Of a stretch of 10,740 nt of DNA, positions 1,956 through 10,175 are shown piece by piece. The notes under the pieces were generated by a model that was not told the DNA's origin, made no database searches, and saw nothing but the letters and a program-made list of their open reading frames with translations. This stretch comes from Clostridia bacterium. Its GTDB lineage: Bacteria > Bacillota > Clostridia > Oscillospirales > CAG-272. Location: contig JAGBWH010000153.1 in assembly GCA_017629925.1 (NCBI GenBank), positions 1 to 10,740 on the forward strand. The letters run 5' to 3'. A program made the translations under genes and the position numbers. How positions within the stretch are numbered: position 1 is the first letter of the stretch; each line of letters begins with the position of its first letter.

Positions 1956-2834
1956 TTAGTTTCCGCTCACAATATTGAGTGCCTTGGCAAAGGCGGTTTC
2001 GTATGCGCCTTCCGTGGTCACAATAGAAGCGCCCGGATCACTCACAGACTCGATAAAGCGATGATTTGCGCCCGTAGTACCAATGCCAATGATGGTCACG
2101 CCCTTTTCACGCAACCGACGGGCATATTCCTGTTGCTCAGAGGGGTCCTCCCATTCGCCATCGGTGAAGAAGAGAACGTATTTTTTGCCCCAAAATCTCA
2201 TAAAATTGCCTTGCTTCAAAACGAATCCCAAAGGCCCTTGCGTGCCACCGTAACTTTCAAGTTCCGAAATGGCGCTCTTCACTCGACCATGAAACGGTGT
2301 CAAAGGTACACGCAAATCCACCCTGGATTGAAATGTGACAAGCCCCACTTGCGTGCCAATGGGCAACGCATTCAAATAGTCCGTTGCCGCCTTTTTCATT
2401 TCGCTCAGCATATCATCGTCCATACTGCCTGACACATCCATGCACATCATCACGGCAATTCTTGCGTGCTTTTTGCCTCCACCACCGGAGCAAACAATGC
2501 GCTCGTCTTTGGAGGCGGGCACGCGTTCTGTTTTCCCGCAAGCGGGACAAGTATGCTTGCCCTCTTTGCCGTCATAGCAAACGAGGGTATTGCAATGGCA
2601 ACACATATAAAGGGACGTATTTTGTCGGCAAGCCGGGCAGCCTTTTCTTTTGAAAGTCCCGATATGCAAATCCGCTTTTTCTTCTATTGTGGTGCTGAGT
2701 TTTGCATCTGAGATAGTGGGCAAAAACATCCCCACAACCGCCACAGATTCATTGCTATCATTGGCGAACTGAAGCCCAATGGGCTTTTTCTTTTGCTCGC
2801 ATTGCCCCATCACAGGGAAAATTTTACTTGCCAT
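1956..2834 (-). CDS. vWA-domain protein with N-terminal zinc-ribbon-like region (copy 2)
   Basis: 292 residues from the ATG at 2834. That start is preferred over an in-frame ATG 39 codons upstream because it follows an AGGAGA site (2850-2845) and aligns with the start of the paralogue; the longer version would run through an intergenic hairpin. It shares KKPIGLQF, VGMFLP, KRKGCPAC and VCYDG with copy 1. Likely zinc ligands are C66, C69, C78, C81, C86, C96 and C99; C79 and C115 are extra. The vWA domain starts near residue 124 and has an intact metal site: D133-x-S135-x-S137, T198 and D225 in FFTDGEW. It is probably cytosolic and binds protein partners through the bound metal. The two copies are clearly diverged, so they may form a heteromeric pair or recognise different partners. 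Confidence 0.9.
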   Translation of the reverse strand: MASKIFPVMGQCEQKKKPIGLQFANDSNESVAVVGMFLPTISDAKLSTTIEEKADLHIGTFKRKGCPACRQNTSLYMCCHCNTLVCYDGKEGKHTCPACGKTERVPASKDERIVCSGGGGKKHARIAVMMCMDVSGSMDDDMLSEMKKAATDYLNALPIGTQVGLVTFQSRVDLRVPLTPFHGRVKSAISELESYGGTQGPLGFVLKQGNFMRFWGKKYVLFFTDGEWEDPSEQQEYARRLREKGVTIIGIGTTGANHRFIESVSDPGASIVTTEGAYETAFAKALNIVSGN

Positions 2835-2895
2835 GTCGGAGGTATCTCCTTTGTTTTTTAGATGTTTTTTGTGTTTTTGGTCTGCTATGAGATTG

Positions 2896-2938
2896 AAAAT
2901 TCCCTCGGGCTCTTCATAGAAAAGTTCCGAGGGATTTT
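2896..2938 (-). terminator. Hairpin between the two vWA genes, possible weak terminator
   Basis: The arms 2938-2927 (AAAATCCCTCGG) and 2908-2896 (CCGAGGGAATTTT) pair with one bulged base around an 18-base loop. The T-run is only four long, so it may be a weak terminator, an attenuator or an RNA-processing site that lowers expression of the second vWA gene. No convincing promoter is seen after it. Confidence 0.45.
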
Positions 2939-2978
2939 GACAGGATGGCACCGATGCTACTTTCGCACTTAGTTAGGC

Positions 2979-3089
2979 CATGATTTGCGCCCACCGTACC
3001 CATATAAATGATGGTCACGCACGGTGCGTGTAGCACTTTGTTTTTTGCTCACATCGCCCCATCACAGGGAAAATGGAGACCTTACTGTC
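2979..3089 (-). pseudogene. Remnant of a third vWA gene copy, internally deleted
   Basis: Two pieces resemble the downstream vWA gene. Bases 3089-3038 read DSKVSIFPVMGRCEQK, against the ASKIFPVMGQCEQKK start of that gene. Bases 3020-2979 read VTIIYMGTVGANH in another frame, against its VTIIGIGTTGANH near the C-terminus. The zinc region and most of the vWA domain, roughly 230 codons, are missing between them, and the frames do not match. There is no start codon at the expected place. The stop codon of the upstream vWA gene falls inside the first piece. The simplest explanation is a former tandem third copy lost by deletion. Confidence 0.7.
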
Positions 3090-3999
3090 CGTCGTGATGG
3101 ATGGAAATGGCATCTGCAAATGCGCCTTCCATATTGTCATACGCGGCAGAAATGCTATTGCCACCGCTACTGAGTTTCGCCAGATAGCGACTATCCGCAT
3201 CGGGGCTACCAATGGTAATAATGGTGACGCCATATTTGGTTTTGAGTTGTTGTGAAAGTCTTTCCATACGTACCAGATCGTTAAATCCGCCATCAGTATA
3301 TAAGATGATGATTTTTTTGCCTGTGTGTTGCAAAAAGGGCAGATAGACACTCTGTTCCATCATATCTCTGAAAGGCCCGATGGTATTATTGCAAGGGTAG
3401 GCATGAGCGTCCTCCAGCACACGGATCAGTTTGCGACGATCGGTGGTCATGGGCACGACATATTCGTTTCTGTCATGGAAATAGACAATACCAATTTGGG
3501 CTTTGATGTTGGGATCGCTGAGCAAAGTGGCAATCACAGCCTGACGTACCACATCAAACTTGCTTTGTGTGCCACTGACCACATCTCTCATACTGCCCGA
3601 ATAGTCAATGGCAACGAGCACTTGGGTGGTCGGGAGTGTTAAAGGGTTTTGGGGTGCATTTGCCACAATGCGATTGGTCGTCATTGCAGGGACGCTCACA
3701 TGGGCATCGCAACCGGGGCAATACGCAGTTCCGCTCATGCCATTATAGCACACGAAATTACCGCAATCACGGCACACAAACATATATTTTGCACCGCAAC
3801 GAGGGCAACCTTTCCTTTGATATCCTTCGCTGAGATAAAATGCGCCATGAAGACTGTCTTCTGTGACATCCTTGGCTTTGCCGTCCGCGCCTACCATGGG
3901 TAAAAAGCAACCTACTGCAAAAAAGTTGGTTCCCTCTTCTTTGAACTGAAGCGCGATAGGCTTTTTGAATTTAGCGCAATATCCGTATGAAATTTTCAT
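3082..3999 (-). CDS. vWA-domain protein with N-terminal zinc-ribbon-like region (copy 1)
   Basis: 305 residues. The N-terminal about 60 residues (KKPIALQF...FFAVGCFLP) form a short conserved region shared with the downstream paralogue. Next is a cysteine-rich stretch with C65-x2-C68, C76-x2-C79, C84 and C94-x2-C97, probably a zinc ribbon. A von Willebrand A domain follows from about residue 125 to the end, with a complete metal-ion-dependent adhesion site: D132-x-S134-x-S136, T206 and D236 in YTDGG. It should therefore bind a divalent metal and a protein partner. No signal peptide is present. TerY proteins also combine vWA and a metal-binding cysteine region, but there the cysteines come after the vWA domain. 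An AGGAGA ribosome site (4010-4005) supports the start. It lies 59 bases after the transglutaminase-like gene. Confidence 0.9.
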   Translation of the reverse strand: MKISYGYCAKFKKPIALQFKEEGTNFFAVGCFLPMVGADGKAKDVTEDSLHGAFYLSEGYQRKGCPRCGAKYMFVCRDCGNFVCYNGMSGTAYCPGCDAHVSVPAMTTNRIVANAPQNPLTLPTTQVLVAIDYSGSMRDVVSGTQSKFDVVRQAVIATLLSDPNIKAQIGIVYFHDRNEYVVPMTTDRRKLIRVLEDAHAYPCNNTIGPFRDMMEQSVYLPFLQHTGKKIIILYTDGGFNDLVRMERLSQQLKTKYGVTIITIGSPDADSRYLAKLSSGGNSISAAYDNMEGAFADAISIHHDGQ

Positions 4000-4058: not shown

Positions 4059-5015
4059 TTATAATTTAATGCTAAATACCATATTGCTATGGACATATTC
4101 AACACTTCTTCTCGTCTTGATGCAGGAGAATACGGTTTGCAAGATGCTCTCTTCTTTGCCCGCCATCCAAGAGGCGCAACGGAAACAAATGACCTTTTTG
4201 CCGGCACGGATTTCTCTTTGGGCAATATCTTTTACCATGTCCATATTAAAGGCATACAAATCATTTTTCATATAATAGTTTTCGTCCGTCTCTGTGGCAC
4301 GGCAAGGAAGCGCCATATCAATTTTGTGATTGACCTCAATTTCTTCATCGCAAAGATTGAAATAGTCATAGACCGAAACGGTGGTGCAACCCATGGTATC
4401 GGCGGTGCCGTTATCCCATGTGATATCTACATGATACCAGTCACTTCTGATTTTGACCACATTCCAAGCATGAGGCCCTATATCCCCACCTTTGCCCGCA
4501 TTTCCCGTCATAATAGCGGTGGTCATGCCGAGCATATCAAAGCAGTATTTAGCGGCCTTGGAAATACCTTCGCATACACATCTGCCGTCTATCAATGCGC
4601 CGATAATGGAATGGGCGTGGGCGCCTTCCTGATAGACGATTTTTTCGCAAAGGCGGTCATGCACCAGCAGTTCCCTGCCAAAATCATCAGAGGGCGCACC
4701 TTTGATGATGCGCTCAGCCTCCGCTTTGCATTTTGCAGAAATGCGCGCGACCTCGCTTTGAGAATAGAGATATTGTGGCATTAAAGTAATTCTCGTTTTG
4801 CCAAACATATTCATGACTCGATAATTGAAGGTCCCATCCACATAGAAAATCTCCGGGTGGTCGTATCTAACACTATCAAGAAGACGTTCCAACCGATGAT
4901 GGTCCGCAAGATCAAAGACAATTGATGTTTTCATTGCCTGATATCCAGCCACTAACGCTTCATAGGCGCACTTTTCGTCGGCAGAGAGGGTGCTTTTATA
5001 TAACTCGCATATCAT
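4059..5015 (-). CDS. Transglutaminase-like cysteine protein
   Basis: 318 residues. The centre carries the Cys-His-Asp arrangement of the transglutaminase-like superfamily: GRCVCEGIS with likely nucleophile C148, PHAWNVVKI with H182, and YHVDITWDN with D197. The HDRLCEKIVYQE segment (119-130) and KAAKYCFDMLGM (153-164) are also typical of bacterial members. Such proteins are peptidases, cross-linking or amide-forming enzymes, so the reaction cannot be fixed from sequence. The N-terminal about 110 residues and the tail after 230 are unassigned. There is no signal peptide, so it probably acts in the cytosol, unlike many secreted relatives. The ATG overlaps the preceding stop (ATGA) and no good ribosome site is seen, which fits translational coupling. 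An enzyme that modifies or cleaves proteins beside a kinase and vWA pair suggests a regulated effector. Confidence 0.87.
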   Translation of the reverse strand: MICELYKSTLSADEKCAYEALVAGYQAMKTSIVFDLADHHRLERLLDSVRYDHPEIFYVDGTFNYRVMNMFGKTRITLMPQYLYSQSEVARISAKCKAEAERIIKGAPSDDFGRELLVHDRLCEKIVYQEGAHAHSIIGALIDGRCVCEGISKAAKYCFDMLGMTTAIMTGNAGKGGDIGPHAWNVVKIRSDWYHVDITWDNGTADTMGCTTVSVYDYFNLCDEEIEVNHKIDMALPCRATETDENYYMKNDLYAFNMDMVKDIAQREIRAGKKVICFRCASWMAGKEESILQTVFSCIKTRRSVEYVHSNMVFSIKL

Positions 5016-6172
5016 AGAGCTGAGGGTACATCGCTTTCTGCCAATTTCATGTATTGATGAGCCGCCACAGGATAGCGCAATTTGGCTTTGCCCTTCAGGA
5101 TGAGCACGAGGCTATCGGTGTCTTTTGCCACCATTTTTTGCTCTTTCAGGAGCTCTAAAGTCACCACGGTGCCTTCAGGCAGATCCAACGCGTTGATGGT
5201 ATCTTGTGTCACGATAGCAGGGCGTTCACCTGCCTCACCTTCCATACGCCAAGGCAATGCCACAGCGGTGCTGTATTTGGGAGAGTCTTTTAATTTTTGG
5301 TCGCGACCAAGCAACTCGGTCACATACCCCTCAATGCTTCCATGGGAAAACTTCTTAAATGCTTCTTCCTCTTCTCTGATTTTTGCTTCGTACATTTCCA
5401 TTTCTTTTACCCATCCTTCAAATGTTTCGATTAGTTGTGGGACATTGTCTATTTTCGTAGACTCAATTTTGTTCACCGCTCTTTTAATGTCGTTGATCAA
5501 TTGCGGAATCGTGGAGAGTTTGCTTTTAAATTGTTCTAATTGAAATACAAATAATTGACGATCGCTACGCAAACCATCAAACAGTACCTTGCAACTATGG
5601 CATTCGTCTTCCATCACACTGATGTCGGGCATCTCTACACGGGGGATGCGATGCTCGAGAGCTTGCAGTTGACTTAGCATTCTCTCATAGGGGAATTGCA
5701 ACGCATCCACACTATCTAAATGAAGCCACTTCACACCTTGGTTTTCCTTCAAGGCAAGAAAACGCCTTTTAAGGGACTCCAGTTTGATTTTGCCTTGCTC
5801 CACCTTCTGAGAAAGCTGCTGTAATTGCTGTTTGGATTGCTTTAAGCGCTCGTCTGTTTTTGCTTTGGCGTGGCGCAACAGACTAATGGCTTGATGTAAC
5901 AACTCAATATCTCTTTGATATCTGCTGCGCGCTTGCTTGATTTCCACTTCGCTTGCGCATTTATAAGTAGCCAGCCGATAGTCCACCAGTTCTTCTGCCG
6001 TGTATGGCCCTACCCTATGGTAGCAATCATCCGGATGCCAAGTCAATACATAATATTCGTCTTTGTCCTTTTGCATCAGCAAAATATGGGGCTCTCTCTC
6101 AATATAGCGAAACCGAACGGCTGCAATTTCTTTGAGTTTAGGATTTTTGTCAGGAATAGACTGGCGCGCCAT
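5012..6172 (-). CDS. Coiled-coil/helical protein of the kinase-vWA cluster
   Basis: 386 residues, function not recognised. Residues about 10-70 form a mixed strand-like segment (EREPHILLMQ...EYYVLTWHPDD...ELVDYRLATYKC) that may be a highly diverged relative of the PWxxD module. Residues about 75-145 are rich in Gln, Lys, Leu and Glu and look like coiled coil. A second helical part covers about 155-275 and contains a lone CxxC (191-194). The C-terminus (305-386) is again strand-like, and its LVLILKGKAKLRYPVA segment resembles YTVYKGPVRLTKNA in a kinase module. No signal peptide or membrane segment is visible. The start is well supported by GGAGGA (6186-6181). Its stop overlaps the start of the transglutaminase-like gene by four bases, so the two are probably translated together. 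Confidence 0.85.
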   Translation of the reverse strand: MARQSIPDKNPKLKEIAAVRFRYIEREPHILLMQKDKDEYYVLTWHPDDCYHRVGPYTAEELVDYRLATYKCASEVEIKQARSRYQRDIELLHQAISLLRHAKAKTDERLKQSKQQLQQLSQKVEQGKIKLESLKRRFLALKENQGVKWLHLDSVDALQFPYERMLSQLQALEHRIPRVEMPDISVMEDECHSCKVLFDGLRSDRQLFVFQLEQFKSKLSTIPQLINDIKRAVNKIESTKIDNVPQLIETFEGWVKEMEMYEAKIREEEEAFKKFSHGSIEGYVTELLGRDQKLKDSPKYSTAVALPWRMEGEAGERPAIVTQDTINALDLPEGTVVTLELLKEQKMVAKDTDSLVLILKGKAKLRYPVAAHQYMKLAESDVPSAL

Positions 6173-6203
6173 AAAAAACGTCCTCCGTTTTACTTCACTG
6201 CTT

Positions 6204-7961
6204 TTAAGACTTTACAGCCAATCCGCACAAGAGCAGATGGAGTGCGGTGACTGTTCTTTTTGCTTCCCCATTATCAACGACGTAATACCCTTCTTTGGTA
6301 TCGCGCGTGATTACGCATCGTTTGTCTTCCACCAAAGTGATATGGTCAGATGGCCACGGGGTGCCTTTATTTTTGAAGGCAATTTTCTTTGCTTTTCTTT
6401 CCAAAAAGGTAAAATGAGACACGTCAAGATGATGTCTTAGGTGAGCACATTCGGTGTGAATTTCATGTAGCCACACATGGCGCTCATTGATATCACGATC
6501 AAGGTCATGCCATTGATTTTGAAAAGAGGCTATTTGACGCTCCACTTTTTCTTTCAGAGGCGCAATATCACCTACGGCTTTTTCGTATGCCTGATGGACA
6601 GATGCCAACTGATCCAAACTCTCTTGGGATCGTTGGAGTTTGACGATAAAGTCCGCTTCTGTCTCGGGGATAATCAAATCCTTATATTTCACATCATAGA
6701 CATCGCAAAACAAACGATATAGTGCCGTGATGTCGCCCGCATCTTTGCGATAGTTTTCCACCAAAGTAGTCATATGGGCTAACTTAGCTGAAAGCTGTAT
6801 CATGGCTTCTCTGATGCGAGCGGCACCGCTGTGTAGTGAATCAACTGTGCCTTGCATACGGATTTTGCTCAAATCAAAAGTGCGAGACAACTCTTCCACC
6901 AAGCCATGAGCTTCGGTCAGGCGGTTTTGGAGAGCGGAAAGTGCGGCACTTTCTAAAACATCGGCATAGGTATTCTTTACCTCAGTAAGACAATTGAGGT
7001 TTGTCTCCATCTTCGCACTCACGGATGTCATTTCACCGATGATTTGCTCAAGGGTGCGCACCCCTTCACGGAAAACGGAAGCCACTGCATGATAGTTTGC
7101 TTCCATCTCCATAAACTCACGTTGCAATGTATTCATGCTTTGCACAAGCGCATCCACATCCAGCCGATACATCAAAATTTCTCTGTATGTTTCGGTGTTG
7201 TGTTTGAGCCCATGAGCGAATATCACTGCTTGGAGCAAAGTGGGAAAACTGTCAAGAGGCACGTCAATGCCATACATCACCCCTTCCAGCGCCTTTGCGA
7301 AGGTAACGGGGGTGGAATGTGCCATTTGGGCAATTTGCTTTTTCACCAGCTCATTTGTATATTCTTCAAGGGGAATCGCAAGCCCCTCATCGAGTAATCG
7401 TTGGGCAACAACAGTGAGTGACATATTCCCGCGCATGAGCGTATATCTGCCATTTACCGCGCTTTTTTGGACGGTGATTCCTGCAGGAAATGGCGCAAAC
7501 ACAATATTGTCCGCTGCCCAGGGGGTGTTGGGCGTGCCATCGTCTACTTTGCCGATTTTCGCCTTTTTTTGCGCCGCTTTGGTCAGTTTTCCTTTTCTGT
7601 CAATCACCAGACCTTGGGACAAAAGATAGTAGGCGTCGCATGCAACAATGAGTGCGCCGGGGGTGCGTTCCAGGAAATATTCTTTTCCCTTTTTGAAGTT
7701 ACGTACAATCAAAGCGGTGGTTTCCGGAGGAATTTCAATGCCATCTGTCGTCCAGGGCTTTTCTGCGAAAAAGGGACTCCATTTCGCCATGCCATAGGCC
7801 ACCAATTGGGCCGCCTGCACTTCTATTCCGCTTTCAAGACCGTTGACAGTATAGCCATACCATCTGCCTTCGGCGCTGGTGCGATAAATTTTCCAATCGC
7901 CTTTTACAAAGACAATGCGGTCTTCATCCCAAGGCAAATAGCATCTGTCATCGTGTGCCAT
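6204..7961 (-). CDS. PWxxD-module protein with long helical core
   Basis: 585 residues, function not recognised. Three PWxxD-type modules lie at the N-terminus (about residues 9-60, 68-119 and 146-196) and one at the extreme C-terminus (534-585). Between them, residues about 200-530 are strongly helical with heptad-like spacing of Leu, Ile and Met, which suggests coiled coil or helical bundle. No signal peptide or membrane segment is seen. The modules match those of the kinase encoded just upstream, so a scaffold or partner of the kinase, possibly a substrate, is a reasonable inference. The ATG lies 12 bases after the kinase stop, and its ribosome site GAAGG (7975-7971) overlaps that stop codon, which suggests coupled translation. 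Thirty-one bases separate it from the next gene. Confidence 0.85.
   Translation of the reverse strand: MAHDDRCYLPWDEDRIVFVKGDWKIYRTSAEGRWYGYTVNGLESGIEVQAAQLVAYGMAKWSPFFAEKPWTTDGIEIPPETTALIVRNFKKGKEYFLERTPGALIVACDAYYLLSQGLVIDRKGKLTKAAQKKAKIGKVDDGTPNTPWAADNIVFAPFPAGITVQKSAVNGRYTLMRGNMSLTVVAQRLLDEGLAIPLEEYTNELVKKQIAQMAHSTPVTFAKALEGVMYGIDVPLDSFPTLLQAVIFAHGLKHNTETYREILMYRLDVDALVQSMNTLQREFMEMEANYHAVASVFREGVRTLEQIIGEMTSVSAKMETNLNCLTEVKNTYADVLESAALSALQNRLTEAHGLVEELSRTFDLSKIRMQGTVDSLHSGAARIREAMIQLSAKLAHMTTLVENYRKDAGDITALYRLFCDVYDVKYKDLIIPETEADFIVKLQRSQESLDQLASVHQAYEKAVGDIAPLKEKVERQIASFQNQWHDLDRDINERHVWLHEIHTECAHLRHHLDVSHFTFLERKAKKIAFKNKGTPWPSDHITLVEDKRCVITRDTKEGYYVVDNGEAKRTVTALHLLLCGLAVKS
6207..6362 (-). 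repeat. C-terminal PWxxD-type module in the helical protein
   Basis: This stretch encodes residues 534-585 of the 585-residue protein and runs to its end. It opens PWPSDHITL, has ITRDTKEGYY in the middle and ends LLLCGLAVKS. It is separated from the other three copies by the helical core, so modules would sit at both ends of that core. Confidence 0.7.
7374..7937 (-). repeat. Three N-terminal PWxxD-type modules in the helical protein
   Basis: This stretch encodes residues 9-196 of the 585-residue protein. The openings are PWDEDRIVF, PWTTDGIEI and PWAADNIVF. Each is followed by a G-x-[WY]-type turn or its variant and an L-x2-G-[LM]-[AV] ending. They match the kinase-tail modules in spacing and conserved positions. 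The second copy is the most divergent. Confidence 0.7.
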
Positions 7962-7973
7962 TATATTCTACCT

Positions 7974-10175
7974 TCATTCTTCAATAGGACGAGCATATCC
8001 GTCCCTGATGAGTTCATCTTTGTTACGGTTGACTGTTGCGCCATGCATAAAGTGCATGACAAGCACATATCTACCCTCCGTTGCGCCTCTGGTAATGGAT
8101 ACGTTTTTCCCTTCAACGAACACAATACGGTCGCTTTCCCAAGGTGCATCAAGGGTGGGAGTGGGCGTTGCGGGAGGTGCTTTAGGGGTAGCAGGGGCAG
8201 GGGTATGTGCGCCGGGCGCTGTGCTCACAGCCAGCCTGTCAGCAATCAAGCCTTTGGCATTTTTGGTCAAGCGAACGGGACCTTTATACACGGTATAGGT
8301 ACCCTCGGTTGCCCCTCTTTCCACACGAACGCCCAAAGGCAATGTGAAACGAATGTTATCGGAGGGCCAAGGCTCACTTGTAGCAGGAGGAGGTGTGCCG
8401 GGTGCTTTGGGTGCAAATTTTGCAAATCCTCTACCAACTAAATATATTTTATCTCTCACAGAGCGGTCAGGCATGAGATAGAAGCCCACACCTTTGGCTG
8501 TATGACGGGTAATGCCTGTGGCAGCGCTGGTGAAGATAATGCCGTCTTCGGGCCAAGGCGTGCTCAGTTCTGCCTCGCGTGCAGCAATTTCTTCAGGGGA
8601 AAGCGTACCGGCTACGGCATAGCCTTCACGAATGAGTTCTGCCTCGCTTCTGCTCACTTCCACTCCGCCTTTGCTCATGAAATAGTAGCCGGGTCTGGCA
8701 GGGTTAGGACGAATGCTGACGGTGTGATCTACAATAGTAATACCGCCCGCGCGCGCGCCCGCAGGAGCGCCAGCAGGTCTGGCAGGGCCACCTGCACCCT
8801 TGAGGGTAAGCAGACCTCTTGCAAGCAGGTCTTTATAGTTGTTGGCTTCGGAAATGCTACCGTTGGTGCGCTTGATAATATACCAGCCTTCACCTCTGGC
8901 AACGTTTTTCATAATGCATTGGATAGAAGGATCTACCTCAGGATGGAATTCATATTCTTCGCCGTTCTTGCCGGGCCAAGGAGAATGAATGTCAATAGGA
9001 AGATATTCTGCAGGAATGTCGGTGATGCCTGTGTCTTGGTAGGTTTGGTAACCGCGAAGCACAGTTGCCACCTGCTCCATTGTGGGACGGTCGGCGGGAT
9101 TGAATGCCAGCATCCAACGAAGCAAAGCATGAAGGAAAGGATGATTTTCTTCAAATTCTCTGGGAGGACGAATGGAGAAAGAGGCATCCATTTCGTCACA
9201 GTCGTTGATTTCCACGGGCATAGAGAACGGGATAGGGGTGCCGTCATCTCCCACAAACAGGGAGTCGTTATAGTACAAATCAAAAGGTGTGAGGTGGGCG
9301 TATTCTTTGCCGTACATACATTCGTAAATCGACATAGCAAAGGAGAATACGTCCAGTTTTGTGGTGATACGAGACAAATCAAAACGATCGTGACCACCAT
9401 TTTGCACAGCGCCATAAAATGCAGACAATTCAGGCGCCATCAAAGTACCGCCAATGGTATTGAGCACATACACCATATTGCCCACATTGGCGCGCAAATC
9501 AGAGGCAAAGAATGCCGCGTCAAAGTCGATGAGTTTACCCACGTGAGGAGAAGCACCGGCTCTGCCAATCAGCATATTATGCATTTTAATATCGGAGTGG
9601 ATGATGCCCAATTTGTGAATTTTCGCATAGGCATCAGCGAAAGTCGCCAGAATATCGCATTGCGCCTTTTCATCCGGCAAACGATAAAATACCAAAGGAA
9701 GTCCGCCTTCTTCAAAGCCCATGGTCACGTCACATTCTCTGACGGCTTCAATGGCTTTGAATTGACCTGTGGACCCTCTTCTTTCAATCCACATTTCATC
9801 TGCGCAGTAAATAATATCCTTAAATTCGGGGCGAGCGAACATCTGATTCATTCTGTTTTTAGCATCCAGATACACATCAGACAAAGCATCCTCTTCATCC
9901 CATGCACGTTTACGTTCAGGGGTGTTGATGGCGTTGATTTCATTATCAATGCAGTCAATGCTTTCTCCTGCACTAATCAGTCTTTGGCGTTCGCGCTCCA
10001 TGTCACGCAAGGTGGTAGACCATTTCTTCCATACGGGGCTGGAGTGCTCTTTGAGGCGATAGGTGACACCTGAGCTGATCAGTTTGCCCTTGATCATGGC
10101 ATTTGTCTTTGCGCCACTCGTCCAACAAGGATCCCCCGAGGGAGTTTTAGGTAAATCAAAATCAGATAATTTCAT
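7974..10175 (-). CDS. Eukaryotic-type Ser/Thr protein kinase with C-terminal repeated modules
   Basis: 733 residues. A protein kinase-like catalytic domain occupies roughly residues 120-380. Visible motifs are the catalytic loop HSDIKMHN (H193, D195, K197, N200; Ser replaces the usual Arg of HRD), a metal-binding DFD (218-220) instead of DFG, the APE-like MAPEL (246-250), an Asp-containing KLDVFSFA segment (273-280) and the late FNPADRP motif with Arg363. These predict a working phosphotransferase. However, the N-lobe is unusual: I see no clear glycine-rich loop or VAIK lysine, and a charged helical stretch (about 50-110) lies ahead of the C-lobe. Residues 398-728 hold about five copies of a PWxxD-type module joined by Ala/Pro/Thr/Gly-rich linkers. 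No membrane segment is seen, so it is probably cytosolic. The start is supported by an AGAGGAAG ribosome site (10188-10181). The next gene starts 12 bases after the stop. It resembles TerY-P-triad kinases by context only. Confidence 0.9.
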   Translation of the reverse strand: MKLSDFDLPKTPSGDPCWTSGAKTNAMIKGKLISSGVTYRLKEHSSPVWKKWSTTLRDMERERQRLISAGESIDCIDNEINAINTPERKRAWDEEDALSDVYLDAKNRMNQMFARPEFKDIIYCADEMWIERRGSTGQFKAIEAVRECDVTMGFEEGGLPLVFYRLPDEKAQCDILATFADAYAKIHKLGIIHSDIKMHNMLIGRAGASPHVGKLIDFDAAFFASDLRANVGNMVYVLNTIGGTLMAPELSAFYGAVQNGGHDRFDLSRITTKLDVFSFAMSIYECMYGKEYAHLTPFDLYYNDSLFVGDDGTPIPFSMPVEINDCDEMDASFSIRPPREFEENHPFLHALLRWMLAFNPADRPTMEQVATVLRGYQTYQDTGITDIPAEYLPIDIHSPWPGKNGEEYEFHPEVDPSIQCIMKNVARGEGWYIIKRTNGSISEANNYKDLLARGLLTLKGAGGPARPAGAPAGARAGGITIVDHTVSIRPNPARPGYYFMSKGGVEVSRSEAELIREGYAVAGTLSPEEIAAREAELSTPWPEDGIIFTSAATGITRHTAKGVGFYLMPDRSVRDKIYLVGRGFAKFAPKAPGTPPPATSEPWPSDNIRFTLPLGVRVERGATEGTYTVYKGPVRLTKNAKGLIADRLAVSTAPGAHTPAPATPKAPPATPTPTLDAPWESDRIVFVEGKNVSITRGATEGRYVLVMHFMHGATVNRNKDELIRDGYARPIEE
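7992..8984 (-). repeat. Five tandem PWxxD-type protein modules in the kinase tail
   Basis: This stretch encodes kinase residues 398-728. Modules lie at about residues 398-456, 478-520 (lacking the PW), 538-586, 600-650 and 676-728. The shared pattern is P-W, two residues, D, x, I, x, F; then a variable turn; an Arg followed by a short polar stretch and G-x-Y; then a conserved L-x2-G-x-A ending. Examples of the opening are PWPEDGIIF, PWPSDNIRF and PWESDRIVF. The copies are similar as protein but not obviously as DNA, so they are old duplications. Linkers are rich in Ala, Pro, Thr and Gly and make the DNA locally GC-rich. I do not recognise the module. A small beta-rich fold is a guess from the alternating pattern. 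Confidence 0.75.

Follow-up and report, generated by a model that had tools for sequence, protein, structure and literature searches.

A repeated PWxxD module shared by a kinase and its neighbour in a putative TerY-P-type locus of a Clostridia bacterium

Introduction

Why would a protein kinase and the product of the gene beside it carry copies of the same small module, and what might that module do? The question is raised by a stretch of 10,740 nucleotides from a Clostridia bacterium (here called the window, meaning the whole of the DNA that was analysed), which makes up the whole of contig C114 in a genome that is 66% complete and has its main genes on the minus strand.

The TerY-P triad consists of a TerY-like VWA protein, a PP2C phosphatase and a Ser/Thr kinase (Anantharaman et al. 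2012, as described in the available part of PMC11090510). In the portions of PMC11090510, PMC7699616 and PMC10889362 at hand, the TerY-P kinase has a C-terminal zinc ribbon or OB-fold, a metal-sensing phosphorylation switch is hypothesised, and no target or trigger of the kinase is named; those of PMC7699616 and PMC10889362 report that anti-phage activity has been shown. A second point of reference is provided by the effector-associated domains (EADs) of MoxR-vWA and GTPase systems, small domains found both in a core component and in the product of the adjacent gene and proposed to act as homotypic adaptors. According to the accessible sections of PMC7159879, homotypic EAD binding is a prediction there as well, and three of the ten EADs are mixed alpha+beta.

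Results

Gene content of the locus

The genes on which the argument depends are the following, with two from a second contig (C126) of the same genome that we join to the end of the window.

C126 1896-2624: VWA gene beyond the phosphatase-like gene; VWA_2 1e-8; 38% identical to a VWA protein of a related locus in genome G1148 (4e-47)
C126 (locus L057) 1-1677: phosphatase-like ORF, overlaps the window end and continues P0008
10211..10738, minus strand: P0008, PP2C-like phosphatase of which this contig holds the C-terminal part; the gene is truncated here and runs on into C126
7974..10175, minus strand: P0001, Ser/Thr protein kinase of 733 aa; Pfam Pkinase at residues 173-369 (2.1e-11), with a tail of five PWxxD modules
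6204..7961, minus strand: P0002, partner protein of 585 aa; three N-terminal modules, a middle of about 336 residues and one C-terminal module
5012..6172, minus strand: P0003, coiled-coil-like protein in the same direction as P0002; no module detected by profile
4059..5015, minus strand: P0004, transglutaminase-like; NCBIfam NF045980 at 6.7e-19, far below its cut-off, and no Pfam match over cut-off
3082..3999, minus strand: P0005, TerY_C-type zinc ribbon plus VWA; Pfam VWA 4.1e-10, TerY_C 7.5e-8 (33.0 bits against a cut-off of 28.4)
1956..2951, minus strand: P0006, zinc ribbon plus VWA; Pfam VWA 4.5e-15, TerY_C 1.3e-5 (25.7 bits, just under cut-off)

Judged by these matches, the locus looks like a TerY-P-type system (stress or anti-phage), the basis being the VWA domains, TerY_C, the kinase and the PP2C-like gene, whose PP2C assignment is weak. 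The kinase P0001 and two other TerY-P-type kinases share the Lys, HxD...N and DFD columns. The two zinc-ribbon/VWA proteins are paralogues (BLASTP 2e-39), and the TerY_C score of P0006 rises to 28.8 bits when the scored frame includes its neighbours. Among 394 genomes of the order, P0005 matched only its own genome at 1e-10; three plasmid records also match it, one being a TerY-C protein of Aromatoleum.

The PADLOC matches of the kinase are to kinases from different defence systems, mad6, MkoA and PD-T4-6 among them. Neither P0005 nor P0006 has a PADLOC match at E <= 1, nor was one found for the phosphatase and one VWA protein from each of two related loci. Since the TerY-C protein and the PP2C of the Aromatoleum ter locus are likewise without a PADLOC match at E <= 0.001, PADLOC may be blind to this type of system.

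The phosphatase end of the locus was traced through the overlap of two contigs. C126 was found by a search of the same genome for PP2C (a weak match), and its ORF runs off the first base of the contig. The first 140 bases of C126 and the last 140 of the window are identical at 132 positions, and the last 46 residues of the C126 ORF are 96% identical to the start of P0008, which makes P0008 the end of a phosphatase-like gene. Direct alignment of P0008 to six PP2C-like tails had given nothing above shuffles. The overlapping ends are 94% identical, with 8 of 140 bases differing, a possible sign that the bin combines two strains. The C126 ORF matches Pfam PP2C_2 under cut-off (0.0057 and 0.027), and BLASTP relates it to the phosphatase-like proteins of two other loci, in genomes G1097 (2e-10) and G1148 (1e-7), whose own PP2C-type Pfam scores are also under cut-off (1.5e-4 in G1097; SpoIIE, 2.8e-4, in G1148). 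Once joined, the gene order is VWA, PP2C-like, kinase, as in the G1097 and G1148 loci.

Elsewhere in the genome a TerD-domain protein (Pfam 7.5e-31) lies on the minus strand at the end of contig C203 (locus L058, 3292-4011), preceded by a cysteine-rich stretch that resembles a zinc ribbon; given its place at a contig end, further Ter genes may be near.

Nine copies of the module in two proteins

The original prediction was of a module of about 50 residues that occurs about five times in the tail of the kinase and four times in its neighbour. A profile search recovered nine copies, five in P0001 (K1 to K5) and four in P0002 (N1 to N4), and each outscored the best of 1000 shuffles of itself, thereby confirming the repeat. 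The copies were placed with a 13-copy profile built from the nine window copies and four from the second genome, G1148. For leave-one-out scores, each copy was scored with a profile of the other eight window copies; these ranged from 12.4 to 45.0 bits, against 3.8 to 8.9 bits for the best shuffles, the weakest copy being K1 (12.4 bits, E 7.8e-6 for one sequence). The following copies all have a profile match and leave-one-out support.

8802..8987, minus strand: K1, P0001 residues 397-458; degenerate, PWPGKN
8610..8744, minus strand: K2, P0001 about residues 476-522; without PW
8415..8564, minus strand: K3, P0001 residues 538-587
8223..8375, minus strand: K4, P0001 residues 601-651; AlphaFold2 pLDDT 95.6
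7986..8150, minus strand: K5, P0001 residues 676-730
7776..7937, minus strand: N1, P0002 residues 9-62
7599..7760, minus strand: N2, P0002 residues 68-121
7371..7529, minus strand: N3, P0002 residues 145-197
6207..6362, minus strand: N4, P0002 residues 534-585; AlphaFold2 pLDDT 95.9

The consensus reads P-W-x2-D-x-I-x-F, then I-x-R, G-x-Y and L-x3-G-L-A. The predicted shared motif stood in part: the G-x-Y turn and the L are kept, and only G, Y and one L are invariant columns of the nine-copy alignment, whereas PW..D is not universal, as K1 and K2 illustrate. A tenth module at the N-terminus of P0003, suggested by eye, had no match at E <= 1 with the 13-copy profile.

When P0001 and P0002 were compared directly by BLASTP, the two stretches that matched best had E-values of 2.5e-11 to 4.7e-11. 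Pairwise identity among the nine copies is 16-38%, with means of 26% within the kinase, 27% within the partner and 26% between the two. Against the G1148 copies the window copies are 20% identical, compared with about 26% among themselves. The module tree is poorly resolved, with no starred branch and with one G1148 copy placed among the window copies; the copy in the G1148 neighbour protein has its highest identity, 44%, with a kinase copy. That copies of kinase and partner are not sorted by gene would fit exchange within the locus, though the poor resolution of the tree applies here too.

In the kinase tail the linkers between modules are 13-24 residues long, and three of the four are rich in Pro, Ala and Gly. 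The middle of P0002 looks helical or coiled-coil, having weak matches to coiled-coil families (Pfam, NCBIfam) and a 3.5-residue periodicity in parts. The partner matched only its own genome when 98 relatives were searched and had no match in plasmid or phage records; P0001 matched nine plasmid records, all inside residues 165-375, which is the kinase region.

Comparison of the module with known families and folds

The first reading of the sequence had recognised no named domain in the module. This holds for Pfam, NCBIfam, PADLOC, PHROGs, PDB sequences, PDB folds and viral folds, and no well-described family absorbed it in these searches. In Pfam, three of the 13 copies each matched a single family weakly, a different one in every case (best 0.027), and none matched GYF_2, a resemblance suggested by its pattern that was thereby rejected. 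Scans of the whole window proteins gave no PADLOC match over the module, a single chance-level NCBIfam match over N4 (NF040642, 0.099) and a single weak PHROGs match over N1 (PHROG 17240, 0.0093). Of the profile searches against PDB sequences, one returned none and another returned weak partial matches (best 0.029).

A common fold among the copies was one of the checks proposed with the original prediction, and the two copies modelled with AlphaFold2, K4 and N4, are both predicted confidently and agree in the order of their structural elements, β-β-β-β-α-β. The input alignment consisted of the nine window copies, and since the same nine sequences were used for both, the two models are not independent. 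With Foldseek, the K4 model had no match at E <= 0.001 either in the PDB (best 0.65) or among viral models (best 0.33). The query was 56 residues long, a length at which weak E-values are expected, and for this reason the module may be an old fold in new dress. In the available literature on TerY-P-type systems no description of the module was found, the module being without a name to search by. Judged by the family and structure libraries together with that literature, PWxxD is apparently an undescribed domain family.

A second locus with the module

The module is rare. A seven-copy profile at E <= 0.01 matched 2 of 398 genomes of the phylum and 3 of 341 of the class, and the 13-copy profile matched 3 of 254 of the phylum (the window's own genome counted in each) and, among 118 relatives of G1148, only G1148 itself. 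Pattern scans of genome contigs and viral contigs gave no confirmed relative. Several matches were judged to be chance: those in G677 and G687 fall in frames that look on reading like DnaE and RecN, that in G788 in a frame that looks like a sigma-54 activator, and that in G1117 consists of two short partial matches.

Only one other genome, G1148, carries convincing copies. Its match (5.5e-4 with the seven-copy profile, among class genomes) is close to the 0.002-0.009 of the matches judged chance, so it is the gene context that carries the case. The match sits in a kinase related to P0001 (BLASTP 8e-18), and the genes beside it include one for a phosphatase-like protein, two for VWA proteins and one for a transglutaminase-like protein related to P0004. 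By inspection there are three modules in this TerY-P-type kinase and one at the end of an adjacent RanBP-type zinc-ribbon protein. With the seven-copy profile alone, one kinase copy scored 16.7 bits and the other two, like the zinc-ribbon copy, were hardly or not supported; scores of these copies with the 13-copy profile are not independent, because that profile contains them.

The G1148 kinase matches 2554 plasmid and 28 phage records. Among the 20 listed per set, one plasmid record (Arthrobacter, to residue 363) and one phage record (to residue 349) reach its first module, and the phage record holds no module. In the same locus (L034) lie a TrwB/TraD-type coupling ATPase (4677-6080, Pfam 1.5e-48) and a protein in which an HNH-like motif can be seen by eye (5974-6837), hinting at DNA processing or mobility.

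Related loci without the module

TerY_C was matched in 7 of 391 class genomes, the window's own included, with five matches over cut-off; no module was found around the TerY_C matches of the six other genomes. The match in G191 is under cut-off, lies among genes resembling gyrB and recF and is probably chance. The locus in G1097 has a VWA gene, a PP2C-like gene, a kinase (2e-13 to P0001) and a relative of P0004, with no PWxxD module. By eye, its kinase (L028, 12612-14108) has two helical-looking tail repeats of about 65 residues in place of PWxxD modules, which we take to resemble FIVAR repeats, Pfam giving no such match. Tail repeats may be swapped between loci.

The relatives of P0004 in the G1097 and G1148 loci (BLASTP 1e-16 and 3e-13) match Pfam Transglut_core. 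Transglutaminase-like proteins recur in three TerY-P-type loci (window, 4059-5015; G1097, L028 17063-18049; G1148, L034 463-1488), and such a protein may be a regular accessory part of them.

MT836186.1, a scaffold from human gut that is catalogued as phage (L036, about 109-2860), holds by eye a compact triad of PP2C-like, kinase and VWA genes without PWxxD modules or extra domains, and also integrase-like and repressor-like genes.

Discussion

A module is repeated in a kinase and in the adjacent protein, two of its copies have a common predicted fold, the system context surrounds both genes, and the arrangement recurs in a second locus. The TerY-P-type context (VWA, PP2C-like phosphatase, kinase and TerY_C zinc ribbon) narrows what the module might do. 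As in the TerY-P triad, a kinase and VWA proteins stand in one gene string, to which a putative PP2C-like phosphatase probably belongs, TerY_C-type zinc ribbons are present, and the kinase has an accessory C-terminal region. The window differs in that this region is made of five PWxxD modules, where the parts of the cited papers at hand give TerY-P kinases a zinc ribbon or OB-fold, and in the addition of P0002, two zinc-ribbon/VWA fusions and the transglutaminase-like and coiled-coil-like proteins.

We propose, at odds only slightly better than even (a probability of about 0.55), that this is a TerY-P-type system in which PWxxD serves as an adaptor that links the kinase to partners particular to each locus; the contacts between modules, like the signal, the substrate and the output, are what we infer. 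The adaptor role is proposed because the pattern of the EADs, a domain in a core component and in an adjacent product, is matched here. Set beside the EADs as given in the available text of PMC7159879, PWxxD is likewise a small non-enzymatic domain of a core protein found again in the product of an adjacent gene, and this is repeated in G1148. Unlike in the EAD systems, no MoxR, VMAP or DO-GTPase core family is present among the Pfam matches of the eight window proteins, and the window kinase has up to five tandem copies. The modules have no Pfam match, but Pfam may not hold EADs.

In the mechanism that we consider, the locus would encode a VWA protein, a PP2C-like phosphatase and a Ser/Thr kinase together with zinc-ribbon/VWA, coiled-coil-like and transglutaminase-like proteins, and PWxxD would be the small β4-α-β adaptor domain of the system. 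The five copies, on mostly Pro/Ala/Gly-rich linkers, would form the kinase tail, and four would flank the putatively helical middle of P0002. Contacts from module to module would most likely join the kinase and P0002 in a multivalent kinase-scaffold complex, which the kinase would phosphorylate and the phosphatase would reset, with the VWA/zinc-ribbon proteins in control.

The main rival to this adaptor role, though a less likely one, is that the modules act as receptors and that both proteins bind one and the same ligand from outside (a nucleic acid, a metabolite, a phage protein or a piece of cell wall), on which the kinase and P0002 would meet and which would also trigger the kinase. Ligand binding would equally account for the presence of these copies in both proteins, and a ligand with a repeating structure would be well matched by modules in tandem. 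In other TerY-P-type kinases the tail holds an OB-fold or zinc ribbon, which has been suggested to bind nucleic acid (PMC11090510, in the part available), and three kinases of TerY_C loci have paired-cysteine motifs in their tails, followed by a stretch that looks beta-rich by eye, with weak zinc-ribbon matches in Pfam. The module has its position C-terminal to the kinase domain in common with the accessory domains of the OB-fold and zinc-ribbon kinases (CoCoNuT and stand-alone anti-phage systems, in the sections of PMC11090510 consulted), but differs from them in matching no zinc-ribbon or OB-fold family in Pfam. A relation to the tails of the three TerY_C-locus kinases was rejected by profile comparison (hhalign probability 0.4%), no solved fold or viral model matches at E <= 0.001, and nothing in the sequence names a ligand. 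The co-assembly or common ligand foreseen in the original prediction stays an interpretation, but has gained support from G1148, where one module family is again present in a TerY-P-type kinase and in an adjacent product.

It is improbable that the tail is instead an autoregulatory or substrate region, with copies marking the substrates that the kinase would phosphorylate, both within its own chain and in P0002. In favour of such a role, genes for a kinase and for a phosphatase-like protein adjoin one whose product has the same repeats; against it, the columns kept in all nine window copies are G, Y and L, with neither Ser nor Thr among them. Less probable still is that the repeat was amplified locally and neutrally and that its copies have no binding role in common. 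The rare distribution, with one other genome carrying convincing copies, would suit this reading, but the core residues are kept in copies that are 16-38% identical, two copies share a predicted fold, and the pattern of kinase plus neighbour recurs in a second genome.

Returning to the adaptor role, a wider version can be put forward tentatively, and we think it has perhaps one chance in three of being right. PWxxD would be the founding β4-α-β adaptor through which TerY-P-type kinases recruit interchangeable partners by multivalent homotypic contacts, making TerY-P a modular signalling chassis, a part proposed for the EADs in MoxR-vWA systems; the partners in question would be the coiled-coil-like scaffold in the window and the zinc-ribbon protein in G1148.

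The system is a variant of a kind already known, whereas its domain, which merits a name, is apparently undescribed and adds a family for annotation. A module common to a kinase and one partner predicts the members of a complex, and the modules, being small and predicted to fold well, lend themselves to testing this. Lastly, the gene after the system (P0007, 810-1895, minus strand) encodes a choloylglycine hydrolase/C45-type enzyme (Pfam, NCBIfam) in which an N-terminal stretch looks hydrophobic by eye; this gene may have no connection with the system.
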